IMG/VR virus record: IMGVR_UViG_3300044766_000068
Span: 1 to 41,063 of that record
From: a virus
DNA length: 41,063 nt
Strand: one strand, 5' to 3'
In this document: one piece after another, positions 5,877 to 35,793 of the stretch
How positions within the stretch are numbered: position 1 is the first letter of the stretch
Layout of the letters: every line of letters begins with the position of its first letter
Translations under genes and position numbers: made by a program
The notes under the pieces: model-generated
The model's input: only the letters and a program-made list of their open reading frames with translations
Told to the model about the DNA's origin: nothing
Databases searched by the model: none

Positions 5877-6240
5877 GCAGAACGACCCCGCGACGCTCCA
5901 GCGCCTCGGCGTTCGCGCGGTAGTCGGCGAGCGCCCGCTCTCCGCTCCGGTCGTACAGGGCCATCGCTTCGGCCGGGTCGTCGCCGGCGACGCGGACCAT
6001 CCCGTCGAGTTCCGCGGCGAGCGTGCCGAGAAGGATCCGAACGCCCGCCCACGCCGCCCCCGTCTTCACCGGCTCGCGATCGAGCAGGCCCCGGAGGTAC
6101 GCGCCGATCCGGCGCCATTCGTCCACGGTGAGGTCGGTGAGCGCCCAGCGCGTCTGCGGGATGGCCAGCGCCGGAAGCACGAGCCACTCGGCCGCGTCGT
6201 CACCCTCGCGCGCGGCGATCGCCTCCTCGAGCGTCGTCAC
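5866..6240 (-). CDS. Hypothetical acidic protein upstream of the replication ATPase
   Basis: 124 residues, not recognised. Mostly helical and acidic, with no cysteine pair, membrane segment or nucleotide-binding motif. The GTG overlaps the previous stop as GTGA and the end overlaps the ATPase gene by 11 bases, so it should be made in step with the ATPase. A replication accessory role is suggested by position only. Confidence 0.6.
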   Translation of the reverse strand: MTTLEEAIAAREGDDAAEWLVLPALAIPQTRWALTDLTVDEWRRIGAYLRGLLDREPVKTGAAWAGVRILLGTLAAELDGMVRVAGDDPAEAMALYDRSGERALADYRANAEALERRGVVLHGS

Positions 6241-6440
6241 GGGCGGCCCTCGCAGATCCGCTCCCAGACCCGCGCCCGGATCGCGCGGAGTTCCCGGGCG
6301 AGGTCCGGCCAGGTGGCCATCTCGGCGCGGTTCTGCGCTGACCGGACGGCCTCGTAGAGGCAGCCGAGGTCGTGGTCGCGCTGTGCTGCGCGCGGCGTCG
6401 TCTCGGGGTCGCCGGAGACAGGAACAGGCGGTAGATTCAC
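6237..6440 (-). CDS. Short hypothetical protein
   Basis: 67 residues with a conserved-looking helical second half (LYEAVRSAQNRAEMATWPDL, then LARELRAIRARVWERICEG). The start is uncertain. GTG 6440 has GAGG eight bases upstream and is preferred. The frame stays open to GTG 6473 and to GTG 6623, which would make a GTGA overlap with the previous gene. The extra codons, however, show about 70% GC at third positions by my count, include AGA codons and carry inverted repeats, unlike their neighbours, so I treat 6441-6619 as non-coding. Function unknown. Confidence 0.5.
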   Translation of the reverse strand: MNLPPVPVSGDPETTPRAAQRDHDLGCLYEAVRSAQNRAEMATWPDLARELRAIRARVWERICEGRP

Positions 6441-6619
6441 GGCTGCGCCCTCGATATTCGGTTGGCTAGTCACCGTCGAGTGTCGGGGGCGCTGCGTTCT
6501 AATGACAAGGGCGATGTCAACGAGATTCCGAACGCTGTGCACCTTTTCCACGGCTTGAGGCGTTCTATTCGTGGACAGCGTGTGGAAAGTCACCACCCGA
6601 GTCCACAGCCGTTTCGCGG
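6441..6619. promoter_or_regulatory. AT-richer regulatory gap with TCCAC boxes
   Basis: About 180 bp with lower GC than its surroundings, upstream of the replication genes. Four TCCAC boxes alternate in strand: TTTTCCACG (6544-6552), CGTGGACAG (6570-6578), TGTGGAAAG (6581-6589) and GAGTCCACA (6599-6607). The third, read on the minus strand as CTTTCCACA, matches 7 of 9 positions of the DnaA box TTATCCACA. A further inverted repeat, TGACA-N7-TGTCA, is at 6503-6519 and includes a TTGACA on the minus strand, though I find no matching -10. A promoter with operators, or an origin, is plausible. Confidence 0.45.
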
Positions 6620-7315
6620 TCACGCTGGCACCTCTTCCAGCCCGCGGGCGCGCCGACTCCCCGCGGCTGCCGTGGCAATCCGTGCCGCGCGCGCCTCGGG
6701 CGAGTAGAGGGCCCAGACGCCCTTCAGGATCGCGGACTGCTGCCCGGGTTCGCGGTGCCCGTTGTGCGGGCTTGGCTTCACGGCCGCGATCAGCGGGCGC
6801 TCCTCGAGGAAGAGCGGCAGCGGGCTCACCGGCCGCAGCGCGCACCCGGGCGTCATGCACCGGCCCGACGGCTCGCAGCCGGCGCAGTAGGCCGCCACGG
6901 CTCGCTGGTGCGCGAGCAGGCGCCGCTCGGCCATCGCCGCGCGCGTCCGGCGATCCGTGCCCACGAGGGACTTGCCCCGAACCGACCGGCACGAGAGCGT
7001 GCAGTAGCGGCGGTTGTCCGATCCCGAGTCGTCGACGAACTCGGTGCCGCAGACGAGGCACGTCTTCCGGCGCAGCTCGGCGGCCAGCGCCGCGAGCCGC
7101 GGCCATTCGAGCGCCTCCGCGAGCTTCTCCGCGGTCACGATCCGCGGCAGGATCCGGCCGGTGCGCCAGTACATGACCGACGTGTCGGACGCATGCACCG
7201 CCTGGGCAACCGCCCGCCGCCCGACCTCCCGCGCTTTCATGGCTCGCTCGAGCTCGCGGCCGAACCGGATCGCGCGGTCGGACTTCGTCGAGACGACCGG
7301 GATGAGGTGGCTCAC
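6620..7315 (-). CDS. HTH plus zinc-finger regulator
   Basis: 231 residues. An XRE-like helix-turn-helix lies at about 16-80 (FGRELERAMKAREVGRRAVA, then HASDTSVMYWRTGRILPRI, then AEKLAEALEW). It is followed by a zinc finger, CLVCGTEF with RRYCTLSCRS about 14 residues later (about 95-125), as in zinc domains that detect unpaired or foreign sequence. A second cysteine cluster (YCAGCEPSGRCMTPGC) follows. The GTG at 7315 overlaps the previous stop as GTGA. It sits just before the regulatory gap 6441-6619 and may bind there. A Cro-like or early-gene role is inference. Confidence 0.65.
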   Translation of the reverse strand: MSHLIPVVSTKSDRAIRFGRELERAMKAREVGRRAVAQAVHASDTSVMYWRTGRILPRIVTAEKLAEALEWPRLAALAAELRRKTCLVCGTEFVDDSGSDNRRYCTLSCRSVRGKSLVGTDRRTRAAMAERRLLAHQRAVAAYCAGCEPSGRCMTPGCALRPVSPLPLFLEERPLIAAVKPSPHNGHREPGQQSAILKGVWALYSPEARAARIATAAAGSRRARGLEEVPA

Positions 7316-7461
7316 GTTGGCACCGCCATCCGCAGCACGAACACCGCGACGAACACGGCCAGGACCGCGAGGGCGAACAGCCGGTCGCGTCGCCTGCTCC
7401 GCTGGCAGGTCGCGCAGCCCTCGGGGCCGCAGGGTGGGAGACGGTGGGCGTGGGGCGTCAC
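7312..7461 (-). CDS. 49-residue single-pass membrane peptide
   Basis: Reads from GTG 7461 to TGA 7312. The first 20 residues hold three cysteines (CGPEGCATC) followed by a basic patch (RSRRRDR). A single transmembrane helix completes it (LFALAVLAVFVAVFVL). Positive charge before the helix predicts a cytoplasmic, probably zinc-binding head. It is flanked by GTGA overlaps on both sides, with the HNH gene upstream and the HTH regulator downstream, which is the main reason to call so short a gene. Its function is unknown. Confidence 0.62.
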   Translation of the reverse strand: MTPHAHRLPPCGPEGCATCQRSRRRDRLFALAVLAVFVAVFVLRMAVPT

Positions 7462-8209: not shown

Positions 8210-8427
8210 GAGGAACCGCCCCGCCACGTTGCAAGCCGTGCCAGGGCCCGCTGGCGGTCATCGGGGTGGTCGATCTGGAGGGCCTCGGACATGCGACTGA
8301 GGCGGGCCGCCTCGATAGATCGGTCGGTCGGCTTCACTCGGCTGGTGCCGTAGCGATCCTCCCGTTCGTCCCACAGCGCGCTCAAGCGCGCCAAGGTCAT
8401 CGCCCTCGGGCGCCTCCGAGCCTTCAC
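8206..8427 (-). CDS. Short hypothetical helical protein
   Basis: 73 residues, charged and helical (LARLSALWDEREDRYGTSRV, then IDHPDDRQRALARLATWRGG). Not recognised. GTG 8427 overlaps the stop of the metallopeptidase gene as GTGA and is preferred; ATG 8400 is the alternative. No cysteines or membrane segments. It links the metallopeptidase and zinc-ribbon genes in the operon. Confidence 0.55.
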   Translation of the reverse strand: MKARRRPRAMTLARLSALWDEREDRYGTSRVKPTDRSIEAARLSRMSEALQIDHPDDRQRALARLATWRGGSS

Positions 8428-9185
8428 GCCAGCGGGGCCGGCTGGTCGAAGTGCCCGCAGTCCGGGACGTGATTGCTGCCTACGCAGCGGAGCTCGCCAG
8501 GGAGCAGGTCGTCGTCCGCGAGGTCCGCCTCTGCCCTCAGATCGGCGTGGCGAGTCCGGGCCCCTCGCTTGGCCGCCACGTCCGCCGCGGCCTGCTCCGG
8601 GGTCTTGGCAAGCGCCTCCGCCGGCGTGGCGCCCGCGCCGTTGCGGCCCTTCGGCCGGTCGAACGGGACCACGGTCTGGTCGCCCTCGACCGTCGCAGTC
8701 GTGCCGAACGACGGCTCGAACATCGCCAGCTGCTTGTCGAAGAGGGCGATGCTCTGCTGCCAGGCGCCGTACTTGCGGACGACGAAGCCGAACTCCTCGA
8801 GGTCGTGCTTCACGACCCGCAGCGATCCCTTCTCGCTCATCTCGCCGTGGCAGAGCTCGTGGGCGACGAGCGCCTCCTGCTCGGCCGGACCGAGGCGGGA
8901 CCACGCCCAGTCCTCGACCCGGATGATCGCGTCGTAGCCCGTGAGGCCGTGCCAGAGCGGAGGGGTCTTCGAGAACCGGGCGAGGACGACGCAGCCGCCC
9001 TGCTCCTTCGGGCGCGAGCCCCGGACGATGACGCAGCCGAGCTTGAAGTTACCGGTCCAGCCGAACTGGGCGGGGTTGAGGCGGATGAGACGGTGCATGA
9101 CCGTCGAGATCTCGGGGCTGACCTCGTAGACGACCGGAGCGGCCGGCTCCCTGGGCTTGCGGGCGCGGGCGAACGACCTGGCCAT
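8424..9185 (-). CDS. Phage metallopeptidase-like protein
   Basis: 253 residues. The motif VAHELCHGEM (HExxH at 109-113) lies in a domain (about 20-165) resembling the putative phage metallopeptidase family, a zincin fold without a signal peptide, so it acts inside the cell. A variable linker rich in Ala follows, and a C-terminal cysteine/histidine cluster (CVGSNHVPDCGHFD, about 234-247). ATG 9185 has AGAGGAG upstream at good spacing, one of the few strong ribosome-binding sites in the early block. It lies 12 bp after SbcC. Its substrate is unknown. Confidence 0.7.
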   Translation of the reverse strand: MARSFARARKPREPAAPVVYEVSPEISTVMHRLIRLNPAQFGWTGNFKLGCVIVRGSRPKEQGGCVVLARFSKTPPLWHGLTGYDAIIRVEDWAWSRLGPAEQEALVAHELCHGEMSEKGSLRVVKHDLEEFGFVVRKYGAWQQSIALFDKQLAMFEPSFGTTATVEGDQTVVPFDRPKGRNGAGATPAEALAKTPEQAAADVAAKRGARTRHADLRAEADLADDDLLPGELRCVGSNHVPDCGHFDQPAPLA

Positions 9186-9197
9186 GGCGTGCTCCTC

Positions 9198-11408
9198 TCA
9201 GCTGATCTGTTCGACCACGGACCCGCCCGGGCCCTTCGACACGCGGTAGATCGCGTCCCCGACCTCCGCGAGGTCCTCGTGGTGAGAGACGACGACCACC
9301 AGCTCGAGCTCGCCGTGGTGGGCGAGGACGCGCAGGGCCAGGCCGAAGGCGCGGCGCGCCTCGGCATCGAGTCCGTCGGGCTCGTCGATCACGAGCGTCC
9401 GGATGGCGGTTCCCGCCCGGCGCGCCACAAGGCGCGAGAGTCCGACCGCGAGGGCGAGGCTCACGGACATCCGCTCGCCGCCCGAGAAGAGCGAAAGTGG
9501 CCGCTCGCCGACGTCGTCGCGCACGACCAGGTCGAGCGCTTCGACGATGCCCTTGCCGTCCCGCTTCGCTCGCTGGGCCCGGATCGAGAGCGCCATGCCA
9601 GGCCGCAGCTGGTCGAGCAGCTCCTGCGCGTAGCCGGTGAGCTCGGGCAGGACCGATTCGATGATCCGGGCCGGGATCCCGGTGACGCCGAACGCGGCCA
9701 CCAGGCGGCGCAGAAGGGCAAGCTGGGCCTCGGCGCGGGCGACGTCGCCGGCGATCCGATCACGCTCTACCTGGTCGCGCTCGAGGCGCAACAGAGCGCC
9801 GCGGGCCTCGGCATCGGCTGCGATCGCGCCGGAGTGCCGCCGGGCCGCATCGGTGGCCGCAGCGATCGCCTCGCGGCGTTCGGCCTCCGCGGCCTCGAGC
9901 TCGCCAGCTACCTTGAGGGCACCGGATGCCCGCTCGGCCGCCTGCGTCTGCGCAATGCGAGCAGCCTTCCCGGTCGCGTCGATCTCGGCCAGCTCGGCTT
10001 CAGCGCGGCCCAGGGCGGCCTGTGCGTCGAGCAGTGCTACACGTGCGCCATCCCGGGCGATGAGCGCCGACGCGGCGCGCTGTGCGGCCTCCAGGGCCAC
10101 CCGGGCGGTCCGGAGGGCGGCGGGATCCACGGCGGCCTCGGCCAGGTGCTGCTCCGCCCGGAAGATGGCGGCCCGATCCCGGGCGATCGTCATCGGCTCG
10201 GCAGGTTCGGGCCCGACGTCTCGGAGAGCCACTCGTGCTGCGTCCAAGCGGCCGGCGACGTCGCCGGGATCTCCAGGGAAGCGGTGCTGGCACTTCGGGC
10301 AGGTGACCGGGGCCAGGTGCATCCCCTGGTCCTCGAGGGCCGCAACTAGGCCAGCCGCGGTGGCCTGATCCTTCCGCCAGTCCGACCTCTTGCGCTCGAA
10401 GGCCTTCTCGGCCGCCTGCTGGGCGCCCCGGAGGATCTCCAGGTTCTCCCGCGCGGCTAGGTGCGTCAGGGCGGCCGTCTCGCATTCGGCGACGATCGCT
10501 CGGGCTGCCTCGACGTCGTGCTCCGGGACCTCCGCCGCGGCCGCGGCCTTCGACCGCTCGATGGCGGCCGTTGCCATCGCCCGATCCGCGCCGGCCCGGC
10601 GGTAGCGATCGCGGAGGGCGGCGAGATCGGCATCGATGCGGGCGAGCTCGGCGCCCGCGGCCCGTGCCTCAGCGAGGCGCCCGGACAAGGCGGCGATCGC
10701 CCGCTCGGCTGCGTCCCGGCGCTGGCCGGCGGCTTCCATCGCCGCGACCGTCGCCTCCTCTTCGGCCTTCGCCGCGGCCGCGGCGGCTTCGAGCTCGGGC
10801 CGGAGTGAGAGTGATGCGTTGAGCGTGTCCAGGGTCCGGCGATCCGCCGCGGCCTCGCCCTCGATCCCCCGGGCGCGGTCACGAGCCCGGGTCTCCGCGG
10901 CCGCGTACACGTCGAGCCCCAGGACCGAACCGAGGATCCGCTTCCGCTCCGCGGCCGTGGCACTGATGAACGCGTCGGCATCGCCCTGGCGGAGGAAGGC
11001 GGCGGTCGTGAAGGTGGCGGCGTCCAGGCGCAGGAGGGTCTCGATCGTGGCCTGCGTCTCGCGGATCGAGTCAGCGGTCAGCGGCACCCAGCCGCCGTCC
11101 GGGAACTGCACCGCGAGCTCGAGGTAGCTCTTGCCGCCACTCCTGACGGTGCGCCCACGCGTCACGCGGTAGCGGGCGCCGGCGAAGCTGAACGTGATCT
11201 CGGCGGACATGTCGGTCGCGCCGAGACGCACGAGGTCGTCGGTCCGTGCGCGTGCGGCGTCGTAGAGCGCGAAGAGCATGCCGTCGAGGAGGGCGCTCTT
11301 GCCGGCACCATTCGAGCCCACGATCGTGGCCAGACGTGCGCCGTTCGGCTCCCAGTGCGTAGCCTCGTGGGACAGGAAGTTGCGCAGGTCGATCGACTCG
11401 AGCTTCAC
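9198..11408 (-). CDS. sbcC: SbcC/Rad50-like exonuclease ATPase subunit
   Basis: 736 residues. Walker A is GSNGAGKS (31-38). Two alanine-rich coiled-coil arms (about 170-365 and 385-560) flank a zinc hook CPKC (370-373). The ABC signature LFSGGERMS is near 640-648 and Walker B TLVIDEPDG near 671-679, followed by a VVVVSHHEDL H-loop. It pairs with the nuclease encoded just upstream to process DNA ends and hairpins. It is shorter than bacterial SbcC (about 1,000 residues) because the arms are shorter, as in phage gp46-type proteins. The GTG start is coupled to sbcD by GTGA. Confidence 0.93.
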   Translation of the reverse strand: MKLESIDLRNFLSHEATHWEPNGARLATIVGSNGAGKSALLDGMLFALYDAARARTDDLVRLGATDMSAEITFSFAGARYRVTRGRTVRSGGKSYLELAVQFPDGGWVPLTADSIRETQATIETLLRLDAATFTTAAFLRQGDADAFISATAAERKRILGSVLGLDVYAAAETRARDRARGIEGEAAADRRTLDTLNASLSLRPELEAAAAAAKAEEEATVAAMEAAGQRRDAAERAIAALSGRLAEARAAGAELARIDADLAALRDRYRRAGADRAMATAAIERSKAAAAAEVPEHDVEAARAIVAECETAALTHLAARENLEILRGAQQAAEKAFERKRSDWRKDQATAAGLVAALEDQGMHLAPVTCPKCQHRFPGDPGDVAGRLDAARVALRDVGPEPAEPMTIARDRAAIFRAEQHLAEAAVDPAALRTARVALEAAQRAASALIARDGARVALLDAQAALGRAEAELAEIDATGKAARIAQTQAAERASGALKVAGELEAAEAERREAIAAATDAARRHSGAIAADAEARGALLRLERDQVERDRIAGDVARAEAQLALLRRLVAAFGVTGIPARIIESVLPELTGYAQELLDQLRPGMALSIRAQRAKRDGKGIVEALDLVVRDDVGERPLSLFSGGERMSVSLALAVGLSRLVARRAGTAIRTLVIDEPDGLDAEARRAFGLALRVLAHHGELELVVVVSHHEDLAEVGDAIYRVSKGPGGSVVEQIS

Positions 11409-12550
11409 GCCGCAGCCTCCAGGAGCTCGCGTCCGAGCGCGACGAGGGCGTCCCGGTCGGGGTCGTCGGCGAAGTAGGCCGACAGCGCCTCCAGCGGGCC
11501 GAGTGACTCCGACAGGCCGCCGGCGATCTCCGGGGCATCGGGGCGGAGCCGCCGGATCTCGGTGATCTCGAAGGCGCCGGCGGCCTCGAGGTCACTCCGG
11601 AGCTGGACGACGTCGACGTCTGGATGCACGTCGACCGCCCGGACGATGGCGCCCTCGATCTGGACCTCGCCGAGGTCGTCGATCGTGTCGGTGAGGGTCA
11701 CGAAGCGCCGCGCCGGTGTCTCGACGAAGGTCCAGCTAGGAACGACGAGCCCGGTCGTCCCGTCGCGCTCGACGTCGACGACCATGTAACCCTTGGACTG
11801 ATTGGCTTCGCCGAAGTCCGTCCGGTAGGGCGACCCGGCGTAGGCGATCAGTGGTCGCTCGGAGAGCACCTGGTGCAGGTGGAAGTGCCCGGCGACGATC
11901 GCGTCGAAGCCGATCGCCCCGAGAGCGCGCGAGTCGACGACCAAGCTCATGTCGCCGAGGAAAGCTTCCTGCGATGGGCTCATGAGCCCGCCAGCCAGCC
12001 CCTGATGCACGACCAGCACGGTCGCGCCGGTCGTCATCTCGCGCGCCTGCGCAAATAGACCGCGGGCCATCGTCAGGAAGGCATCGCCGAGCACGCGGAA
12101 GATGTCGGCCTCGGGGACGCTTTCGTAGCCCGACAGGGCCCGAAGGTGGTGCTTGTCGAGATACGGCAGCACCGCGATCGCCGTGTCGTCGACCAGGATC
12201 ACGCCCGGGCGCGAGAAGCCGGCCCAGCCGGCCCGTCCGGCCGCCAATACGTCGACGATCGAACGGTCGGCCCGCAGGCCGTCGTGATTGCCTCGAGCGA
12301 GGATCGTCGGCCCGCCGAAGGCGTCGAGCGCCTCGCCGATCTGTGCCACGCGCCACGGCGCAGGGTGCCGCGATTCGGACAGGTCGCCGGCCACGATCAG
12401 AGCGTCGCAGCCGCGCTGGCGCGCATCGTTGGCGACCCATCGGACCATCCCGACGGTGTCAACCCATCGCGCGTTGAGGCCCGACGCGGCGTCGATCTTC
12501 GACCCGAAGTCGTCGCAGTGCGGATCGGCGAGGACGGCCAGGCGCGTCAC
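11405..12550 (-). CDS. sbcD: SbcD/Mre11-like nuclease subunit
   Basis: 381 residues. The phosphodiesterase motifs are in order: ADPHCD (8-13), GDLS (about 55-58), GNHDG (about 87-91), VVHQG and GHFHLHQ (about 221-227), together coordinating two metal ions. The C-terminal part is a capping domain that contacts the SbcC partner. The GTG start overlaps the stop of the HNH gene as GTGA. With SbcC it forms the phage counterpart of T4 gp47/gp46, likely making recombination substrates or protecting the genome ends. Confidence 0.93.
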   Translation of the reverse strand: MTRLAVLADPHCDDFGSKIDAASGLNARWVDTVGMVRWVANDARQRGCDALIVAGDLSESRHPAPWRVAQIGEALDAFGGPTILARGNHDGLRADRSIVDVLAAGRAGWAGFSRPGVILVDDTAIAVLPYLDKHHLRALSGYESVPEADIFRVLGDAFLTMARGLFAQAREMTTGATVLVVHQGLAGGLMSPSQEAFLGDMSLVVDSRALGAIGFDAIVAGHFHLHQVLSERPLIAYAGSPYRTDFGEANQSKGYMVVDVERDGTTGLVVPSWTFVETPARRFVTLTDTIDDLGEVQIEGAIVRAVDVHPDVDVVQLRSDLEAAGAFEITEIRRLRPDAPEIAGGLSESLGPLEALSAYFADDPDRDALVALGRELLEAAA

Positions 12551-16481: not shown

Positions 16482-16781
16482 CTAGCCGTAGCCCTGCATC
16501 ACGAAGCTGAACGTCGCATCGTCGGTGTATGTCCCGAGCCCCCAGACAACGCGCAGCCCGCTCGCGGCGTTCAGCGGCGCCTCGGGCATCGCGTTGTCGC
16601 TCGCCGACCCCGACGTGAGCGCCGTCCCGCCCCATGTCGCCCCGCTGTCGGCCGAGGTGTAGCGGAAGAGCTCGAAGTGGGCGCCGACCTTGACGGGCAT
16701 GTAGATCGTGTCCGGGTCACCGTCCGCGATGGCCGCGGTTGCGAGGTTCGCGTTGCCCCCGACGTAGCCGCCCGAGTCCGC
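16482..16781 (-). pseudogene. 3' remnant of a second BNR_4 propeller protein
   Basis: An open stretch of 99 codons with no proper start; a stop in the same frame lies at 16782-16784. It reads YVGGNANLATAAIADGDPDT, then ELFRYTSADSGATWGGTALT and ENDS similar to the last blade of the propeller in the 1286-residue tail protein (there EIFRYTTADDGDTWAAGAIT). An internal ATG at 16700 could still yield 72 residues. It is best explained as the tail end of a former receptor-binding gene cut by recombination. The partner sequence at the breakpoint is on the plus strand. Confidence 0.7.
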
Positions 16782-17163: not shown

Positions 17164-17808
17164 CTAGAGCGCCGTCCCATGCGCCACGTGGCCCCGGAGG
17201 AACGGCCTGACGCCGGGCAGCGTGTGGCCCGACACCTGGAGGCGCGTGTCGCGGTTCAGCCTGCCGGGGATCGTCGAGTAGTACACCAGCGCCCATGCGT
17301 GAAAGGCGACGCTCACCTCGAACTCGTCCCCGGGCTCTGCGGTCACGTCCGGGACGTTGATGTAGATCGTGCCGAAGAAGCCATCGAAGCCGGTTCCCCC
17401 CGGTGCTGGCGAGGAGTTGATCTGCGAGGCGATGACCACGCCGTTCTGAAGGATCAGGACCTGGACGTAGCACTCATGATCCTTGTAGCGCACCCCTCCG
17501 AACGGCCCGGCATGCTCGATCGTCACGAGAGACTTTGCCAGGACCCGGATGCCGCGATATTTGCAGAAGTACCCGCCAGTGTGGTACGGGATGACTTCGA
17601 CCGGGCCTGTCGTCGGCTCCGGCACGAAGCCGATCGAGGGATGGTCGCCGTCTGTGTCCCACCCGACGATCTCGGTCCCGTCCGGCCACGTTCCCTTGGG
17701 GATGCAGCCATACATCCCGGAGTGGTGCTCCAGGAGCGTCAGGCTGAGGGGTAGCGACTCCGCCCCGGCGGCGAACCGGCTGGTGCCGCTGACCGTCGAC
17801 TCGGTCAC
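17164..17808 (-). CDS. Probable tail-tip or virion-associated protein
   Basis: 214 residues, not recognised. Beta-rich with many Gly, Tyr and aromatic positions (GVRYKDHECYVQVLILQNGV, then INVPDVTAEPGDEFEVSVAF), like a jelly-roll or Ig-type surface domain. No cysteine pairs or membrane segments. The GTG overlaps the upstream tail gene as GTGA. It is the last intact structural gene. A host-contact role is inferred from position. Confidence 0.55.
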   Translation of the reverse strand: MTESTVSGTSRFAAGAESLPLSLTLLEHHSGMYGCIPKGTWPDGTEIVGWDTDGDHPSIGFVPEPTTGPVEVIPYHTGGYFCKYRGIRVLAKSLVTIEHAGPFGGVRYKDHECYVQVLILQNGVVIASQINSSPAPGGTGFDGFFGTIYINVPDVTAEPGDEFEVSVAFHAWALVYYSTIPGRLNRDTRLQVSGHTLPGVRPFLRGHVAHGTAL

Positions 17809-18305
17809 GGCTTGTACTTGCGCTGGACCGTGATCTTGAAGCCGATCTCGACCGAGATCGTCGCCGGCGTCCGGTAGACCCGCGTGACGTACAGGGGGTT
17901 GGAGATCGCCTCGTCATACGTGTGCGTGTCGAGCCCGTCCTCGATCGTCCACCCCGGCGGAGGATCCCACAGCATCTTGAAGCCCTGGAGGAGCGGGTCG
18001 ACGCGGTGCTGCGTAACCTCGCAGCGGCAGTAGAACTCCTTGTCGCCCTCTGGGCTGTCGATGCCCGGAGTCAGGCTCAGCGGCCCGTAGGTCCGCCCCG
18101 CGTCGGAACCGTAGGCCGGGGAGAACGTCAGTTTGGCGTCGAACTGGTCGTCGATCGGCGGGCGCGCACGCAGGATGACCGGTTTCGGCGCCGGCTTCTT
18201 GACGATCGTGAGGACCTTCGGGATCGGGTCATAGACCCGCGGGATCAGCAGCATGGCCCGCGCCATCCTGGTCTTCGGCTCGTAGACCCGCCTCGGATCA
18301 GGCAT
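17805..18305 (-). CDS. Hypothetical tail protein
   Basis: 166 residues from ATG 18305; a GTG four codons earlier (18317) is possible. The N-terminal 50 residues are basic and proline-rich with repeated RVYxP-like pieces (RRVYEP, PRVYDP), followed by a beta-rich domain (YCRCEVTQHRVDPLLQGFKM and TISVEIGFKITVQRKYKP). Overlaps the propeller-hub gene by 8 bases. Not recognised; position indicates the tail tip. Confidence 0.55.
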   Translation of the reverse strand: MPDPRRVYEPKTRMARAMLLIPRVYDPIPKVLTIVKKPAPKPVILRARPPIDDQFDAKLTFSPAYGSDAGRTYGPLSLTPGIDSPEGDKEFYCRCEVTQHRVDPLLQGFKMLWDPPPGWTIEDGLDTHTYDEAISNPLYVTRVYRTPATISVEIGFKITVQRKYKP

Positions 18306-21300
18306 CGATCCACTCACCGACGATCTCGGTCTCGCCGGCCGCCGCGTCCGTGCTCCACCCGATGGCGCGCTCCGTCCCGGTCCACCGCCCCGGCGGCCCT
18401 TCCGTGGCGACGTCGACCGCGTGAGACGTCCCGAAGCCGATCGTCAGCTGGTCTCCGCGGAAGTGGGAGACGTGCGCTCCGACCCGGATGTAGGGCCGCG
18501 AGATCTCCGCGAGTTCATCGGCGGCCCATTCCGCGCCCTCGGGCCACGTGTACGGGAACGGGAAGCCGGCCCACGCCTCCGCGCCGAAGCGCGTCACCGG
18601 AGCCCCGGCCTCGTGGATGATCGCCTCCGTCCCGCCCTGGCCGCGAACGACGTGCAAGAGCGCTCCGACCATCGAAAGAACGGAGACGATCTCCCGGTTG
18701 GATCCGTCATCGATGGCCACGAGGAACGGGAACGCGCCTGGCTCAGAGTCGGGATCCGGCGCGCCCATGATCGAGTCGACCTCGAAGTCGGTATCGGTCG
18801 CGGAGATCCCGGTCGTCAGCGACGTCGACCAGTCGCTGCCAACGTCGAAACTCGCGATGTGCCAGCGCGGCCGGGAGGTCTCCGCGCCGTTGAAGATCGT
18901 GATCGCGGCCTTCAGGATCCCGACCCCGTCCCGGCGTGGATCGTAGTCGTCGATCCGGTCCTCCTCGAAGTCGTACATCTTGCCGATGAACGTCGCGCCG
19001 TTCGCGTCGACCTGGTCGATCGCCGCGTCCGGGCCCAGATCCGTGAAGCGGTTGTCCGAGTCGCCGGAGTTGACCCACGTGGAGAGCGCCAGCGGCCCGG
19101 AGATGATCCGCCGGAGGTTGAGGCGCCTGTGGAGGATCGGATCCCACACCGGCACGCTGTACGGGTCGACGTAGGCGCCGTCCCCGGCGGCGATGCTCCG
19201 GCGGGACGTCACCCGGCCGCCGGAGACCGTGAAGAGCTCCACGACGCCGTAGTTGTGCCACTGCACCAGCGACAGCCCGGCGGCGCTCGGGATCGCGACC
19301 GTCTGGACGGTCTGTACGCCCGTGATCCGGTTGTACGTCACGACCAGCCATTCCCGGAGATCCAGCTGCGAGTGCTTATCCGAGATCATCACCGCGCTCC
19401 CGGGCTCGTTCGTGTGGAGCTCCACGAGTTGGAGCCGGGTCCGGAAGGCGCGCCGGGAGAGCGAGTCGCGGCCGGCGAGCTTCGGCTCATAGAAGTCCGG
19501 CGGCCCGAGGTAGGCCCATCCGTCGTGCCAGGGCCGGCCCTCGATGTCGTGCACGGCTCGAAGGAAGGATCGGTACAGGCTCCAGATCCAGTCGACGATC
19601 GCGTTGCACTGCGCGGCGATCGCGGCCTTGGAGAGCCCCCAGTCGAGTGACTCGTCGAGCCGCTGGCGGTTCCGGTAGGTACCCGGGTCCACGGAGACCG
19701 TGATCTCCGGAACGATGTCCAGTAGCGCCCACTGCGCCCACTCCGGGAGGCACGCCGCGAGGTCGGTTGTCATGCCGCGGAGCCGGATGGAGAACCTGAG
19801 CGGCGTGGGATCCTCGACGACCTTGACGCCGGTCAGGACGTTGCCGCCCGGCCCGTCGTAGATCGCCGCGCCGGCCCCGGCGTCGAAGCGGTCGCGGACC
19901 CGGAGGATCGGCACCAGGCGGTTGCCGTCGAGCCGGGAGTCGCACGCGATCTCGGTCCGGCTGCGGGCGATGACCAGGTCCAGGCAGGAGACCGTATCGG
20001 TGTCGAGGTCGAGGTCGCCGCGGAACGGTTTGGAGCCCGCGAGGTCCAACTCCCAGCGGAGATCTCCCGTCACGGCCCGGAGGTCGTTGTGGAGCGCCAT
20101 CAGCCGCGCGTAGACCGCGGTGGCTGGCGTCCCGTCGCTGACCTCCTCCGTGAGCGTGATCGCCGGCCCGTCGCGCAGCACCGTGAAGGGATCCGCGCAC
20201 TCGACCTCACGGATGCCCGTCTCCTCAGGCGATTTGTCCGCGTCCACGGTGGGACCCATCGTTCCCCACCAGGGCGTCTCCCCGGCCAGGCTCTGCAAGC
20301 GCACCAGGCGATCGGAGGCGATCAGGCCGATGTCCGGCGAGTGCCGGCTCACGTTGAACGTCATCCCGCCCTCATTCGTTACCCGGCGCGAGCGGAGGTA
20401 ACGGACCGGCGGACCCGTGACGTTGAACTCGGCGATGGAGCCCAAATAGACCCCCGCCTTGTCGAACACCATCAGCGGCTGCCAGAGCGGCGGGACGGTC
20501 CGGGGCGCCCCGCCGGGGACGCCGGCGGCGAGCAGGTCGAAGAGCTGGTGCAGCGACGATCCGACGAGATCCGCGACCAGGCTGAACGGCTGGCTGAGGC
20601 TCGATCCGACCGGCCCGGCTAGGTTGAACAGTTGGTGCAGGGTCGCGCTGACCGGCGGACCCTCGAGCGTGAACGGTTGGCTGAGCTCAGAGCCGATCGA
20701 GCCGATCGTGAAGAGCTGGTGGAGGATCAGCGGCCCGAAGTCGAGGGTCACGACCGGAATAGCGAGGACGATCACGACCGGATCAGGAGCCAGCCCGGAC
20801 GCGGCCGCTGCCGCTGGCGCAGAGGCCGACGCGCCCCAGATCCCGAGGCTGTTGTTCTGATCGAACGCTGGGAACGTGAGCGTGCCGCGGAGCCACGCGA
20901 CGACCAGCGTATCCGGCCGCGGCCCTCGCACGGCAACGGGGTAGACGTTCTCGACCGTCGAGCCGGAGGTGATCGCGCCCGCGGCCCACGTGTCGCCATC
21001 GTCCGCCGTCGTGTAGCGGAAGATCTCACGGTGCCCGCCGACCATCTGCGAGCCGTAGGCGCGCGTCAGATCCCCCGCGTCGACTGTGGCGACCGAGCCC
21101 GGGTCACTGGTGTTCACGCCGATCGACCCCACGATCGTCGAGAGCGTCCACGTCCCTCCGCTCTCCCGGGCGTAGCGATAGGAGGCATCGACCCCGAGGT
21201 CGACGGCGAAGACGAACCGCGGATGTCCGCTCCCGTCGACGATCAGATCGGTCGCCCACGCCGGACCGGCAACGCCCGTGTAGTAGGCCCGCGTCAGGTC

Positions 21301-22158
21301 CGACGGTGCGAGCGGCAGGCTGGCGGAGATCGTCGTTCCGTCGCTCTTGAGATAGACCCCGGCTGAGGGTGAGGAGAAGTGGAAGATCGAGCACGGCCCG
21401 CCCTGCGGGTTGTCGTCCGTGACGACGAAGTGGAGCGTCGCGCCGTCCGGCGCCAGGGCGACCTTCCAGTACGTGTAGTGGCCGGGGTTCGCGTAGACGT
21501 GCTCGATCGGGCTCCAGAAGGCGCCGTCAAAGTCGGTGGCCTTCGTGAAGGACAAGTAGCTCGTGGTGCCGAAGACGTAGTCCCTGAAGAACAGGTAGAC
21601 CGGCGAGCCGGCCTCGGTTGTCCGTTGGACCAGGATCGGATAGGTATAGAGGTTCCCGCCGATCGTCCCGTGGAGTGCCTGCTCCGTCCCGAAGGAAGCG
21701 ATCGAACCGGAGATCGTCGAGATCCGGAGATAGATCTGGCCGCCGTTGTGTGGCGAGTAGGCCGCCATGATCCGGCCATCGGCGAGGACCAGGAGCGCCG
21801 GCGCATTGTGCGTGTCGGGCGGCGAGGAGATCGCGGCGCGGAGGATCGTGGCGGCCGAGGTGATCCCGGTAGCCATATCCCGCTCACGGACCTCGACGTT
21901 GCCCGTGACCCCGTCGATGTAGCCGAGGAACGTCTTGTTGCTCGCCTCGTCGTAGACGAGGCGCGACTCGGGGATCTGCGTCCAGCCGCCCGACGGCGGG
22001 CTCGTGATCGGGAACGGCGGGAGCGCCAGCGTCGGGGCGGGGACGACGAGCGGGATCGCGACCGGAGCCGGGGTGAGGATGCGGCCGGCGGACGCGCCGA
22101 CGAGCCCGCCGGGCGACCCGACGAGCCCGCCGCCTCCCCCGACGATCGCTTGCGTCAT
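18298..22158 (-). CDS. Tail hub fused to BNR_4 beta-propeller
   Basis: 1286 residues. After a Gly/Pro-rich start, residues about 58-445 form a sialidase-like propeller of BNR_4 type, with NKTFLGYIDGVTGNVEV, HNAPALLVLADGRIMAAYS, YLRISTISGS, PVYLFFRDYVFG and FRYTTADDGDTW. A linker (about 476-541) repeats LHQLF and LSQPF alternately. The rest (about 545-1286), starting MVFDKAGVYLGSI and SRRVTNEGGMTFNVSRHSPD, resembles siphovirus ReqiPepy6 Gp37-like tail proteins that form the hub. It should attach to the tail tip and bind or trim host surface glycans. GGAG precedes the ATG. Confidence 0.75.
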   Translation of the reverse strand: MTQAIVGGGGGLVGSPGGLVGASAGRILTPAPVAIPLVVPAPTLALPPFPITSPPSGGWTQIPESRLVYDEASNKTFLGYIDGVTGNVEVRERDMATGITSAATILRAAISSPPDTHNAPALLVLADGRIMAAYSPHNGGQIYLRISTISGSIASFGTEQALHGTIGGNLYTYPILVQRTTEAGSPVYLFFRDYVFGTTSYLSFTKATDFDGAFWSPIEHVYANPGHYTYWKVALAPDGATLHFVVTDDNPQGGPCSIFHFSSPSAGVYLKSDGTTISASLPLAPSDLTRAYYTGVAGPAWATDLIVDGSGHPRFVFAVDLGVDASYRYARESGGTWTLSTIVGSIGVNTSDPGSVATVDAGDLTRAYGSQMVGGHREIFRYTTADDGDTWAAGAITSGSTVENVYPVAVRGPRPDTLVVAWLRGTLTFPAFDQNNSLGIWGASASAPAAAAASGLAPDPVVIVLAIPVVTLDFGPLILHQLFTIGSIGSELSQPFTLEGPPVSATLHQLFNLAGPVGSSLSQPFSLVADLVGSSLHQLFDLLAAGVPGGAPRTVPPLWQPLMVFDKAGVYLGSIAEFNVTGPPVRYLRSRRVTNEGGMTFNVSRHSPDIGLIASDRLVRLQSLAGETPWWGTMGPTVDADKSPEETGIREVECADPFTVLRDGPAITLTEEVSDGTPATAVYARLMALHNDLRAVTGDLRWELDLAGSKPFRGDLDLDTDTVSCLDLVIARSRTEIACDSRLDGNRLVPILRVRDRFDAGAGAAIYDGPGGNVLTGVKVVEDPTPLRFSIRLRGMTTDLAACLPEWAQWALLDIVPEITVSVDPGTYRNRQRLDESLDWGLSKAAIAAQCNAIVDWIWSLYRSFLRAVHDIEGRPWHDGWAYLGPPDFYEPKLAGRDSLSRRAFRTRLQLVELHTNEPGSAVMISDKHSQLDLREWLVVTYNRITGVQTVQTVAIPSAAGLSLVQWHNYGVVELFTVSGGRVTSRRSIAAGDGAYVDPYSVPVWDPILHRRLNLRRIISGPLALSTWVNSGDSDNRFTDLGPDAAIDQVDANGATFIGKMYDFEEDRIDDYDPRRDGVGILKAAITIFNGAETSRPRWHIASFDVGSDWSTSLTTGISATDTDFEVDSIMGAPDPDSEPGAFPFLVAIDDGSNREIVSVLSMVGALLHVVRGQGGTEAIIHEAGAPVTRFGAEAWAGFPFPYTWPEGAEWAADELAEISRPYIRVGAHVSHFRGDQLTIGFGTSHAVDVATEGPPGRWTGTERAIGWSTDAAAGETEIVGEWIDA
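20537..20732 (-). repeat. Tandem LHQLF/LSQPF linker repeats
   Basis: Inside the tail hub gene. Five units of 13-15 residues alternate LHQLF, LSQPF, LHQLF, LSQPF, LHQLF, each followed by Leu/Ile-Gly-rich spacer. DNA copies have diverged, so selection acts on protein spacing rather than recent duplication. The regular period suggests a stiff beta stalk or trimer seam between propeller and hub. Confidence 0.7.
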
Positions 22159-22178: not shown

Positions 22179-23030
22179 CTATCCGACCTTGGTCAGGACG
22201 AGTAGCGTCGCGCGGTGGAGGCTCGAGGTGTCGTTGCCCTGGTCGCGCCGGATCTTGTAGTTGTTCCCGCCGGCTGTCGCCTGGACCGTAATCGGGTCCG
22301 TCCCGTTAGCCGTGACCCGGGCCGAGAGGAACAGGTTGTAGGCGAAGCTGTTGACCGTGAGGAAGTCCAACTCGGTCTCGTCGACCGGCGTGGAAGAGCC
22401 GTTGGCGATCAGGCGCGCGATCATGTCAATGTTGGCCGAGCTCGCAGCTTGGATGCAGACCCGGGCCCAGACGTCATAGACCCCGGCGGCGGGAGTTGCC
22501 GTCGGCCCGTCGTAGAAGGTGTCGGCCGTCGTCATCGTCACGTCGCCCGACAGGGTCGCCTCGGTCCGGGCCGGCGTTGAGGAGGTCCCGAACACCGTGA
22601 CCCGCTTGTCGATGATCTGCCCCGACGAGATGGCCGTATCGCTTGTCGGGACGTCCACCATCGCGAGCGCAATGTGCCCGGAGGGAAGCGCCGGCGGGTC
22701 CGGGTTCGCGGCGGCGGTTCCAGCGGTAACCGTCTTGACGCCGGCGGCGCTCGCGGTGACGAGGTCGATCCGCGGGTGCGTCCCGTCGGCGGTGCCGATC
22801 GTCACGTTCCCGGAGGTGACGGTGACGGCCGTCGCCCCGGCCGACGGCTGGATGGTCCCGGAGGCCACGGCGAGCGTCATGTCCGGCGAGCCCTGTGCGG
22901 TGACTCCGCAGCCCGTCAGGACCCCGACGCCAGCGGTGCCGGCCACGAGGATCGCAATGTCGGCGTCGTACCACTGTGACTGGCGCGCCGGGACGCCGGC
23001 CCCTGCCTGATTCGGGATCGTGAATACCAT
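22179..23030 (-). CDS. Tail fibre-like structural protein
   Basis: 283 residues. The N-terminal part has SQWYDADIAILVAGTAGVGV, VTAQGSPDMTLAVASGTIQP and TAAANPDPPALPSGHIALAM with IIDKRV, a set of blocks found in many siphovirus virion proteins. The C-terminal half is beta-rich (YDVWARVCIQAASSANIDM and similar), like a carbohydrate-binding or fibre knob domain. ATG 23030 is preceded by GAGGAG at good spacing, so a 15-codon upstream extension (to 23075) is rejected. Sits beside the hub gene. Confidence 0.65.
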   Translation of the reverse strand: MVFTIPNQAGAGVPARQSQWYDADIAILVAGTAGVGVLTGCGVTAQGSPDMTLAVASGTIQPSAGATAVTVTSGNVTIGTADGTHPRIDLVTASAAGVKTVTAGTAAANPDPPALPSGHIALAMVDVPTSDTAISSGQIIDKRVTVFGTSSTPARTEATLSGDVTMTTADTFYDGPTATPAAGVYDVWARVCIQAASSANIDMIARLIANGSSTPVDETELDFLTVNSFAYNLFLSARVTANGTDPITVQATAGGNNYKIRRDQGNDTSSLHRATLLVLTKVG

Positions 23031-23041
23031 GACCGACTCCT

Positions 23042-23476
23042 CTAGGTGAGCTGAACGATCCCCTCGGCGTTCCACGTCACGGCGACGTCGCTGCCGGTGC
23101 CGGCGAACGGGAAGCCGCCGGAGTCGATGTAGGCGATCGGGATGGAATCCGAGTCATTCGTGACGAATGCCAGGACTACCATCGCCTGCGCCTGCCGCGT
23201 CCCGGCCCCGAGCGCCGACCAGGTGATGTCGTTGGCGTCGAGCTCGGCGCGGTTGTTCGCGTCGTCGCGATTGACGGCCTCGCCGGTGACCGCCTTGCGG
23301 GCGTAGGACGCGCCGTCGTATTCGTCCAGCGTCCCGATCGCCGAGATCGTGCCCGCGTCCTGGTCGGTGTCCGCCGTCGTGTTCGCCATCACGAGCAGGA
23401 CCCGGATGTCGGAGGTCTGCCAGGCGAGCGTTCCCTTGGCGAAGTGCTCCTTGGCTGGCGTGTAGGCGAAGCTCAT
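23042..23476 (-). CDS. Small virion protein of the tail tip
   Basis: 144 residues. FAYTPAKEHFAKGTLAWQTS then DIRVLLVMANTTADTDQDAG and SYARKAVTGEAVNRDDANNR are blocks seen in a widespread family of small tail or baseplate proteins of unknown function. AGGAG lies upstream of the ATG. Little else can be said. Confidence 0.65.
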   Translation of the reverse strand: MSFAYTPAKEHFAKGTLAWQTSDIRVLLVMANTTADTDQDAGTISAIGTLDEYDGASYARKAVTGEAVNRDDANNRAELDANDITWSALGAGTRQAQAMVVLAFVTNDSDSIPIAYIDSGGFPFAGTGSDVAVTWNAEGIVQLT

Positions 23477-24615: not shown

Positions 24616-27228
24616 TCAGCCCAGCGACGCCAGGAAGCGCAGGTGCTGGATCACGGTGAACTCGTCGTGCGCGTCGGCGAGCTCGATGTGCTCGATGTTG
24701 ATGTGCTGCTCACGCGCACCGGCGCCGCCGGTTCCCGCGGAGCGCCAGGCATCGGCCTGGTCGACGGTCAGGACGGCCTCGCGCTGATGGATGTATGTGA
24801 GCTGATCGTGCGGCACGTAGGGGATCCCGCTCGCTCCGCTGGGGAAGACAAGTGTCCCGCCGACCATCGTCCCGGTATCGACGGACGCTCCGCCCGGTTT
24901 GGCCGTCCAGAGCGTCAGGCCGCCCAGCCCGTGGGCCAGGAGCGCCATCGCGGCCGCGATCTTCGCCTTCGCGGTCGCGCTGGAGATCTCCTCTGCCAGC
25001 GCATCGGTCCAGCGGGTGCCCTCGGCCCGTGCATCGGCCCTGATGAGAGGGTCGGCTGAATCGAGCGCCGCCTTCATGAGTTCCTGGAGCGCAGCCGAGA
25101 CGACGACCTCCGAGCCTGCCGACTTGATCCCGGATGCGATGGCAGCCCTATGCGCCGCGTCAGGGAGGACCGTCCCTCCGACGATCGTCCCGGTATCGAC
25201 AGCTGGGGGCATCGCGGCGAGGGCGGCCGCGATCGCGGCCTGGCTCTGGACCTGAAGCGCGAACCAGCCGGCGAAGCCCCTCAGCTCCGTGTCGGTGGAT
25301 GTCTTGAGGTCGTCGATCAGGCCTTCGGAGACCTTGCTCATGATCCCCGGGCGCGGCTTCAGATCTGCGATCGCGGAGTCGAGCGACGTCGCCAGAGCCT
25401 TGGCATCAGCCCGAATCTGCGCATCGGGCGACTTCAGTGCATCCGTGAGGCTCTTCGAGGTTCGCGCTTTCAAGAGGCGCTCGAGCTCCGTCGTCTGAGT
25501 CAGCGGCTTGTTCTTCAGGTCGGCATTGAGCTGGTCGATCGCCGCATCGATCCCGGAGCGCCGGCTGCGGATCTCGTTCGCAGCGCCGGTCAGGAGGTCG
25601 GCAACCGCCTTTCGCGTTTCCGCCGTCAGGCCACGGATGCCCGCTGGGATGCCGCCGAAGCCTGTCGCCGCGGCGGCCTCCAATGTCGTTCGAGAGGCCG
25701 CAAGATCGCGGGCGGCGGCGTCGACGTCCCCGCGCTCACCAGCCCGGAAGGCGTTGCTCGCGGCCTGTCGCTTCGCCTCGATCTGGGCGGTGACCGCGTC
25801 GAAATCCCGCTGCATGCTCGCGAGCTGGTCGCCATAGAGGGTCCGCCCGAACGGCAGGTTCAGGATGTCGGCCATTCCCTTGCCGATCGCCGCTCGGGAT
25901 GCCTCGAGCTGGTCGAGCGTGGCCGTCTGGACGAATGCGGCAGTCTGGGTCTCGATCGCCGCCGCCTGCTGATTTAGCTGATCGTTGATCGTCGCCCAGG
26001 TCAGGACAACTGCGCCCGCGGCCGCCAAGGCGAGAGCGGGGCCGATTGCGGCGCCGATCAGCGTCCCGATCTTCGTACCCGTGGTCATCCAGGCCTGGAC
26101 GCCGGCAGCCCCGACCAGCGGCCCGGTGATGGCGCCGATGAGCTTCGGCCCGAGCCCCGGGAACGTGAGCGCGAGGCCCGCGAGCGCCGAGCCGAGCGAG
26201 CCGACGATCCCGATGACCGGGCCGGCCGCATTGCCAACCTGGGCCAGGAAGCCGGTCACGTTCTGCACCAGGAGATCGAGGGTCCGTCGCCACGATGAGT
26301 CAATCTTGCGCGCCGCGATCTCGACCTTATCCGCCGTCTCCTGGGTGGTGAAGCCGTAGTTCTCGATCGCCCCGCGACCAGGGGCCAGGGCATTGGCCAT
26401 CTTGGCCCCGGCGAGGGCTCCGAAAAGATCGGCCGCCTTCGTCGCACGTGCGAAGGGATCCTCGGTCGCCTGGATGTCCGCGACGAGGCGCGCGAACTCC
26501 TCGGGGCTCTTCACCTTCCTCAGTGCGTGCTGGAGCGCCATTGTCATGGTGGATGCGTCCACGCCGGCCGAATTGAAGAGGTTGATCAGCTCGGCCCCCT
26601 GCTGCCAGGTCATGTTCGCGGCGGTGAGAGCGGGCGCGACGGAGATCAGCGCCTCGCGGTTGGCCGTGAGCGTGCCGCCGAACTTCTGCTGGCCAGCCTC
26701 CAGCGTGTCGAGGACCGAGAGCGTCTCGGCCAGCGTGAGCTGGTAGGCATCGTGGAGATCGTCCGCGCCTTTGACCGCGGACGCGAAGCTCTCCTGGGCG
26801 ACCAGGCCGAAGTCCGTCAGACGATCGGCTGCCATGCCGACCTCGCCAGCGCTGGCCTGCAGGTCGGTCGTAATCGCCGCGACACCGTCGCCGATCTCGG
26901 TCAGCGAGAGGGTCGTCCGCCGGTTCTGGCGCTGGATCGCGTTCGACATCGCATCCCACTGGGCGCCGGTGGCACCGGAGCGGGCCTGGACGTTCGTCAG
27001 GGTCTCGTTGAGGTCGAGACCCCCCTTGGTCATCACCCCGAAGGCAGCGGCGGAGACCGTCGCGAGCGCCCCAAGGACCCGCCGCGGGCTGAACGCGCTC
27101 TCGATCCGGTCGCCGGCTGCCTTGGCCTTGCCCTCCGACTGCGCGATAGCCGCGTCGAAGCCCGACATGTCGCCACCGATGGCGATGTAGGCATCGAGCA
27201 GCTTCAGGAGGCCGCCGCGGGCTGCCAT
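24616..27228 (-). CDS. Tail tape measure protein
   Basis: 870 residues. Residues about 80-280 match the TP901-type tape measure core (TNVQARSGATGAQWDAMSNA, then GDGVAAITTDLQASAGEVGM and WQQGAELINLFNSAGVDAST). Hydrophobic segments lie at about 330-415 (VIGIVGSLGSALAGLALTF, IGAAIGPALALAAAGAVVL). The helical C-terminal half contains a duplicated VDTGT-VGGT element and ends near HQREAVLTVDQADAWR. At about 0.15 nm per residue it predicts a tail near 130 nm. The gene follows the frameshifted chaperones, as usual. Confidence 0.9.
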   Translation of the reverse strand: MAARGGLLKLLDAYIAIGGDMSGFDAAIAQSEGKAKAAGDRIESAFSPRRVLGALATVSAAAFGVMTKGGLDLNETLTNVQARSGATGAQWDAMSNAIQRQNRRTTLSLTEIGDGVAAITTDLQASAGEVGMAADRLTDFGLVAQESFASAVKGADDLHDAYQLTLAETLSVLDTLEAGQQKFGGTLTANREALISVAPALTAANMTWQQGAELINLFNSAGVDASTMTMALQHALRKVKSPEEFARLVADIQATEDPFARATKAADLFGALAGAKMANALAPGRGAIENYGFTTQETADKVEIAARKIDSSWRRTLDLLVQNVTGFLAQVGNAAGPVIGIVGSLGSALAGLALTFPGLGPKLIGAITGPLVGAAGVQAWMTTGTKIGTLIGAAIGPALALAAAGAVVLTWATINDQLNQQAAAIETQTAAFVQTATLDQLEASRAAIGKGMADILNLPFGRTLYGDQLASMQRDFDAVTAQIEAKRQAASNAFRAGERGDVDAAARDLAASRTTLEAAAATGFGGIPAGIRGLTAETRKAVADLLTGAANEIRSRRSGIDAAIDQLNADLKNKPLTQTTELERLLKARTSKSLTDALKSPDAQIRADAKALATSLDSAIADLKPRPGIMSKVSEGLIDDLKTSTDTELRGFAGWFALQVQSQAAIAAALAAMPPAVDTGTIVGGTVLPDAAHRAAIASGIKSAGSEVVVSAALQELMKAALDSADPLIRADARAEGTRWTDALAEEISSATAKAKIAAAMALLAHGLGGLTLWTAKPGGASVDTGTMVGGTLVFPSGASGIPYVPHDQLTYIHQREAVLTVDQADAWRSAGTGGAGAREQHINIEHIELADAHDEFTVIQHLRFLASLG

Positions 27229-35011: not shown

Positions 35012-35793
35012 CGGGCAACCACCGGCCCGAAGGCGCGTTGGCAGTTCGGGTGGGCGACCGGATACTCGTCCGCCTCGTCGAGCGTCCGGGTGGATCCGTC
35101 CGCGAGGTCCGGATCGTCGTGCTCGGTCCAGCCGCACTCCGGCCCGTCGAAGACCTCGACCTCATCGATAAGCCCGGACTCACGGTAACCGGCCGAGGAG
35201 GCGAGATTGTAAGCCGTGGCCGTCTCTGTCAGGGCGATCGCCTGAGCGCGATTACCGAACAGTTCGCGGAGGCCTGGGACGCTCTCGGTGCCGGCCACGA
35301 GCTGCTCGACCGACAGCCCGCCCGCGATCGCGGCCTCGACCCGGTTGCGGAGGGCAGCGAGCAGTGTGTCGGTGATGCTCGAGACGTTGAGCCCGAGCCG
35401 GGCGCGGATGCCCTTTGTCGATGCGGCCGCCAGGTCGAAGGTGAGCTCGACCCCGAGCTGGTCGCCGAGCGTCGAGTAGGCCGCCTCGCCCATGACGACG
35501 TACCAGCGCTCGAGCACCACCCGGAGACGGGCCTTCTCGTCGGTCCAGTCGACATCGGCCTCGGGGTCGAACGGGAACGCCACGTCCTTCCGGACGCCCG
35601 CCCGCGCGAGCAGCCCGTCGAAGAGATCTATGAGCTCGGCGGCCAGGGCCGGCTGGGCCTCGGCGAAGAGCTTGTCGCGCGCAGCGATCGCCGCAGGCGC
35701 CGTCGCCTTGCTCAGGCGGCCGCGGGCGAACCGGAGCATCTCGTCGACGATCGGCAGGATGATTTCGCCCTTGTGGAGCAAGGTGAGCGTCAT
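35008..35793 (-). CDS. Minor head protein, SPP1 gp7/Mu gpF-like
   Basis: 261 residues. The helical N-terminus is followed by the family's C-terminal block: QAIALTETATAYNLASSAGY, IDEVEVFDGPECGWTEHDDP and ADEYPVAHPNCQRAFGPVV, where the acidic/Cys/His residues resemble the known HPNC zinc or metal site. These proteins are ejected or sit inside the capsid near the portal. Coupled to the portal gene by ATGA. Confidence 0.85.
   Translation of the reverse strand: MTLTLLHKGEIILPIVDEMLRFARGRLSKATAPAAIAARDKLFAEAQPALAAELIDLFDGLLARAGVRKDVAFPFDPEADVDWTDEKARLRVVLERWYVVMGEAAYSTLGDQLGVELTFDLAAASTKGIRARLGLNVSSITDTLLAALRNRVEAAIAGGLSVEQLVAGTESVPGLRELFGNRAQAIALTETATAYNLASSAGYRESGLIDEVEVFDGPECGWTEHDDPDLADGSTRTLDEADEYPVAHPNCQRAFGPVVAR

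Follow-up and report, generated by a model that had tools for sequence, protein, structure and literature searches.

A predicted lyase-superfamily beta-propeller in the N-terminal stalk of a conserved phage tail-tip protein

The usual plan of a tailspike or tail fibre is an anchor at the N-terminus and an enzyme at the far C-terminal end, and the majority of known phage depolymerases are beta-helix tailspikes whose enzyme lies at this far end. One gene in the tail module of the viral DNA analysed here (IMG/VR record IMGVR_UViG_3300044766_000068; the window, 41,063 nucleotides in length) raises the question of whether another layout exists, since its product appears to carry a beta-propeller near the N-terminus whereas its conserved part is C-terminal. 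The earlier note on this DNA had read the gene as a BNR_4 propeller fused to a Gp37-like tail hub, which would place glycan binding or cleavage on the tail axis rather than on separate fibres. At issue are whether the two halves form one protein, what kind of propeller is present, and what it is joined to.

The 41 kb contig has a GC content of 70% and contains terminase, portal, major tail, tail terminator and tape measure genes. On the minus strand the tape measure gene is followed by genes for proteins of 136, 238, 144 and 298 aa, then by the fusion gene and by genes for 170 and 214 aa; this order after the tape measure marks the fusion gene as the large tail-tip gene. Homologues were found in the IMG/VR contigs L003, L004 and L009, and in L041 (IMGVR_UViG_3300045286_000133), which is cut off mid-gene by the contig end. 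The genes concerned are as follows.

24616..27228, minus strand: tape measure protein gene (phrog_1272, E 2.3e-7; tblastn to annotated tape measure proteins, E 7e-7).
22179..23075, minus strand: structural protein gene just upstream of the fusion gene, 298 aa (phrog_3398, phrog_20556).
18298..22158, minus strand: fusion of propeller and conserved tail-tip part, whole ORF, 1286 aa (single open frame; start common to relatives).
17805..18317, minus strand: conserved 170-aa gene just downstream (homologues at this position in L004 and L009).

The propeller and the C-terminal part are one protein. The earlier note named no strand; stops interrupt the reading of 18298-22158 on the plus strand, whereas the minus strand has an uninterrupted ORF whose start lies 20 bases past the point where the upstream tail gene stops. 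The N-terminal sequence M..AIVGxGGGLVG..GGLVG recurs in the homologues of L003, L004 and L009, which indicates that this start is right. GC at codon positions 1/2/3 is similar in the two halves, at 0.59/0.53/0.90 in the propeller and 0.66/0.50/0.92 in the C-terminal part. The single 1286-residue protein of the earlier note is thus upheld by the open frame, the codon-position GC and an N-terminus that matches relatives without a propeller. The parts of the protein are listed below.

22012..22158, minus strand: conserved Gly-rich tip and first PxPVAIxLxIPxPT unit, residues 1-49 (invariant residues common to L003 and L004).
20824..21987, minus strand: predicted beta-propeller of the PL24/PL25/PL42 lyase superfamily, residues 58-445 (AlphaFold, Foldseek).
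21142..21933, minus strand: match to Pfam BNR_4 (PF15892), residues 76-339 (E 2.7e-17).
20494..20823, minus strand: stalk with a second PxPVxI-type unit, then LHQLF/LSQPF repeats, residues 446-555 (five repeat units).
18301..20493, minus strand: conserved tail-tip part, presumed hub, residues 556-1286, 731 residues (conservation in relatives).
18595..18828, minus strand: small domain common to phage tail fibre and structural proteins, residues 1111-1188 (phrog_38058).

BNR_4 is the sole Pfam match on the 1286-aa protein, scoring 63.5 bits against a gathering cut-off of 27.3 and covering positions 2-266 of the 272 in the profile. Residues 50-455 were modelled with AlphaFold from a 5-row alignment with relatives (haloarchaeal BNR-4 proteins); the model was all beta, with a pLDDT of 71.8 and a pTM of 0.77. 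When this model was compared with the PDB using Foldseek, the PL25 ulvan lyase structures 5UAM/5UAS (PLSV_3936) came first with an E value of 4.8e-13, and the next best fold matches were BT3686 (5MUL; formerly GH145, now PL42), FoRham1 (7ESL; PL42), LOR_107 (6BYX; PL24) and Uly1. Ranks 1-16 were all of PL25, PL42/GH145 or PL24 type (E 4.8e-13 to 1.2e-8), with unrelated propellers below them, and 5UAM, 5MUL, 7ESL and 6BYX each matched with a probability of 1.00 and a TM score by query of 0.55-0.68. Overall identity to the solved lyases in these superpositions is 11-15%, and the model itself is middling (pLDDT 72). A PDB sequence search with the single fused protein gave no match, and a profile made from the 5-row alignment matched PL25 5UAM by sequence at E 1.1e-5, with sialidases next at 7e-4 by way of their Asp boxes. 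We conclude that the domain belongs, by its predicted fold, to the PL24/PL25/PL42 lyase superfamily. Both the structure prediction that the earlier note had proposed for residues 58-445 and the Pfam and Foldseek matches agree with its placing of a BNR_4 propeller N-terminal to a conserved tail protein. That note's reading would have been undone by the lack of a propeller fold or by halves that are separate proteins; the fold is predicted with fair confidence and both halves lie in one ORF.

Four residues of the propeller align with the active site of PLSV_3936.

21808..21810, minus strand: H117, equivalent to PLSV_3936 H123, the catalytic acid (profile alignment; role from PMC8377490, PMC13193363).
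21748..21750, minus strand: H137, equivalent to H143 (profile alignment to 5UAM).
21640..21642, minus strand: Y173, equivalent to Y188, the catalytic base (profile alignment to 5UAM).
21583..21585, minus strand: R192, equivalent to R204, the charge neutraliser (profile alignment to 5UAM).

These equivalences can be read because, with a constant offset of 24, each of the 11 residues that the literature names (PMC13193363, PMC8377490) coincides with the right letter in the 5UAM chain. In PL25 enzymes His123 acts as acid, Tyr188 as base and Arg204 as neutraliser (PMC8377490), and in SH2L_Ulv3, which like the PL25 ulvan lyases belongs to the Pfam family BNR_4, changing the tyrosine to alanine abolishes activity (PMC13193363). 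The equivalents of H117, H137, Y173 and R192 are invariant in all seven proteins of an alignment (A5) drawn from phages, haloarchaea and an actinobacterial plasmid, in which 17 of the 406 columns are invariant; the probability that all four would fall in such columns by chance is about 2e-6. That the fused copy keeps all four when little else is invariant suggests selection on the active site. The likeness to PLSV_3936 and SH2L_Ulv3 thus extends over the propeller fold, the catalytic H, Y and R and the second H. It does not extend to the PL25 substrate residues N122 and K125, which are T116 and A119 in the fused propeller, nor to the zinc ligands H208, H264, C266 and H278, whose aligned positions lack a His/Cys cluster, in a stretch where the alignment is gapped and of low confidence. 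Identity to PLSV_3936 is about 14%, and the domain has no secretion context and is joined to a tail protein. Because N122 and K125 are replaced, we file the domain as a superfamily member whose catalytic set is intact, and not as a member of PL25; ulvan is probably not its substrate. FoRham1, also a member of BNR_4, has the anterior-pocket histidine in common with it (PMC8377490). FoRham1, BT3686 and LOR_107 are, however, cellular enzymes at 11-15% identity, from which specificity cannot be transferred. With the four PL25 residues kept, the glycan cleavage suggested in the earlier note is plausible from the sequence, and the domain is probably a catalytic one.

The closest sequences found were haloarchaeal and Janibacter 'BNR-4 repeat-containing proteins' (L017-L024), which are 26-34% identical over the domain and have the same H/H/Y/R set. 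They are, however, chromosomal or plasmid-borne, several of them beside sugar-metabolism genes, and are not tail proteins. Searches of IMG/VR for propeller relatives, with the single sequence or with patterns from alignment A6, found none.

Comparison with the relatives places the propeller within a variable stalk. The propeller is missing from the hub homologues of L003 (870 aa), L009 (847 aa) and L004 (1038 aa), no BNR_4 match was found in these three contigs, and the insert is likewise absent from the hub homologue of L041, which is cut by the contig end. Residues 1-49 are 61% identical to L004, and the Gly-rich tip also forms the N-terminus of the L009 protein; stalk residues 455-546 are 55% identical to L004. 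Since the L004 protein matches both flanks and skips the propeller, the insert sits in the stalk between the PxPVAIxLxIPxPT unit and a similar one. In place of the propeller the L004 stalk has five PxPVAIxLxIPxPT-like units, with a different insert of about 100 aa further on (residues ~207-310) that matches, at 53% identity, part of Nocardia phage NTR1 annotated as tape measure. The propeller therefore looks, from these alignments, like a swappable module set in a variable stalk that follows the conserved tip at the N-terminus. Recombination through flanking DNA repeats is only suggested: the units are alike in protein, but their DNA is identical at 32 of 51 positions, no better than many pairs of L004 units.

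L041 has a propeller of its own, encoded by a separate gene of 393 aa (6181-7362 of the reverse complement) directly upstream of the homologous hub gene, which begins at 7363; the TAG stop of the propeller gene is followed immediately by the in-frame ATG of the hub gene. This gene lies between the homologue of the 22179-23075 gene and the hub gene. Its product is homologous to the fused propeller (30% identity, E 3e-16) and differs from it in being a separate protein without equivalents of H137 and R192, so that it is probably inactivated, to judge from these residues, and some propellers in the pool of modules are probably only binders. An IMG/VR search with the L041 propeller returned only L041 itself. 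Part of another such gene is present in the window.

16482..16745, minus strand: remnant of a second propeller gene, its 3' end, last 87 codons (closest to the L041 propeller).

The remnant lies downstream of the tail genes and is 66% identical to the L041 propeller (E 5e-32) and 42% identical to the fused one; upstream of it nothing recognisable of the rest of the gene was found in any frame. With a separate gene in L041 and both a remnant and an insert in the phage analysed here, propellers come and go in this tail locus. A tree joins the fused and L041 propellers with weak support (84/90) and long branches, and we do not derive the one from the other.

What the propeller is joined to was less readily identified. 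Residues 556-1286 are 72-77% identical in L003, L004 and L009 (alignment A3), and L041 is 72% identical over the 442 residues present. This part gave neither a Pfam nor a PDB match, and a pattern scan of bacterial genomes found no hub relatives. An AlphaFold model from 4 sequences reached a pLDDT of 31. Residues 1111-1188 match the tail fiber protein family phrog_38058 (E 1.1e-6), a match found in all four members of A3. The Gp37-like identity given in the earlier note (PF14594) found no match by hmmscan or by genome search, although the same profile scores 82 bits on ReqiPepy6 gp37 as a control. Comparison of A3 with an alignment of seven ReqiPepy6 gp37-like proteins by hhalign gave probabilities of 0.03-0.3%, with an A3 profile shallow enough (Neff 1.36) for a remote kinship to escape it. 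Of the two profile searches proposed in that note, then, the one for BNR_4 succeeded (E 2.7e-17) and the one for the Gp37-like family failed by both methods, with hhalign below 1%. The gene nonetheless lies downstream of the tape measure gene, its neighbours are the same in L041, L009 and L004, and from gene order, size and conservation the C-terminal part is fairly likely to be the tail hub.

A substantial minority possibility is that the C-terminal part instead anchors a side fibre or spike, with the propeller at the periphery. Its sole profile matches come through the small domain that also occurs in structural and tail fibre proteins of phages, no hub family matches it, and the long repeat stalk is fibre-like; on the other hand, this is the largest gene past the tape measure, every relative conserves it to a high degree, and it has no rival in the tail module as a conserved candidate of hub size. 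The earlier contrast with separate fibres was too strong, as the stalk that carries the propeller is long and variable and may reach sideways, and L041 has a propeller as a separate gene. That the fusion is an assembly chimera in which a foreign propeller gene was joined to a hub gene is very improbable. The fused form was found once and all data are metagenomic contigs, but a conserved tip precedes the insert, conserved stalk follows it, GC and codon-position pattern are similar across the parts, and the same genome holds an independent remnant of the same propeller superfamily.

As to what the propeller does, it would be a lectin-like binder if it recognised a surface glycan and had lost cleavage, as might be expected from the L041 copy, which lacks two of the four active-site residues, and from the precedent for oligosaccharide-binding sites on tail-axis proteins in the RcGTA hub and megatron (PMC7296036). 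We regard this as unlikely though deserving some weight for the fused copy, in which 4/4 active-site residues are kept while little else is invariant in the family. Hardly credible is a sialidase or BNR hydrolase of GH33 type. The propeller does contain the Asp-box-like motifs ATDFDGAFW and TTADDGDTW and matches sialidase profiles weakly, but those matches are mostly short Asp-box stretches, lyases come first by both profile and fold, and PL25 is the family whose H/H/Y/R set is conserved here.

The reading that we favour, with modest confidence, is that the phage is temperate and siphovirus-like and that its tail-tip protein combines a conserved C-terminal virion part with a replaceable PL24/PL25/PL42 depolymerase propeller in a variable N-terminal stalk. 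The C-terminal 731 residues, the presumed hub, would form the virion-building part, and the stalk would hold the propeller near the tail tip, a virion position that we infer. There the propeller would meet the host coat, possibly a uronic-acid-containing capsule or exopolysaccharide, and bind the polymer, which may then be cut by beta-elimination: R192 would neutralise the carboxylate, Y173 take the C5 proton and H117 protonate the leaving group. Once the coat is degraded, or at least bound, the tail tip could reach the cell surface or wall, and exchange of the module between phages could change which coat is penetrated. A more specific version is tentative: a lyase propeller of PL24/25/42 type N-terminal on an axial tail hub, in a phage family that preserves a separate upstream gene, a decayed remnant and an in-stalk insertion. 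If it were true, depolymerase specificity would shift via the hub and not via fibres.

Propeller depolymerases are an established minority among phages: DepoScope describes n-bladed propellers as depolymerase domains on phage proteins, and they account for 119 of 984 detected phage depolymerase folds, about 12% (PMC11326577). Glycan contact at the tail axis also has precedent, as the RcGTA hub carries oligosaccharide-binding domains on an axial tail protein (PMC7296036). BNR_4-like propellers with the same four residues are already known in structural-gene regions of Gordonia phages, in Nordenberg gp19 ('glycoside hydrolase') and YungMoney gp37. In these proteins, however, the propeller stands between an anchor-like segment at the N-terminus and further domains, and they are unrelated to the fused tail-tip protein. 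The Nordenberg gp19 gene (L012, 8638-11058) lies between the major tail and head-to-tail adaptor genes, far from the minor tail genes, and the same cassette in YungMoney is placed after the minor tail genes.

In the literature searched, we found no paper combining 'BNR_4' and 'phage tail', and no report of a PL24/25/42-type propeller on phage tails. New here are the lyase subtype with a complete catalytic set, its N-terminal placement on a tail-tip protein, and the occurrence of fused, separate and absent states in one family. With a lyase-type propeller in the N-terminal stalk of a conserved tail-tip protein, coat penetration would be arranged in a different way, and the range of BNR_4 lyase-like domains, best known in degraders of algal polysaccharides, would extend to virion parts. 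The four relatives without the insert, one of them with a separate propeller gene, form a natural comparison set, with which access to coated hosts can be tested directly against movement of the domain in and out of the tail tip.

A large serine integrase indicates that the phage is probably temperate.

1486-3015, minus strand: large serine integrase with Resolvase and Recombinase domains (phrog_95).

A haloarchaeal host was considered because the nearest sequences to the propeller are haloarchaeal and the best matches of the portal protein are to archaeal viruses. The phage proteins lack strong halophilic acidity, and given this and the serine integrase such a host is unlikely. For the portal protein (35790-37283, minus strand) the best named matches are Drs3, psiM2, PhiCh1 and phiH, viruses of methanogens and haloarchaea, and the majority of matching records are Streptomyces phages.

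Elsewhere in the window, adjoining SbcC-like and SbcD-like genes lie at 9198-12550 on the minus strand (phrog_77, E 1e-64; phrog_100, E 1e-25), and a PhageMetallopep domain protein (PF18894, E 1.5e-17) is encoded at 8424-9185, minus strand. Two genes downstream of the presumed hub gene, the gene at 17164-17808 (minus strand) and its counterparts in L004 (11260-11958) and L009 (12677 on) have a similar start, a conserved end (LRGHV) and a variable middle, like a receptor-binding protein.
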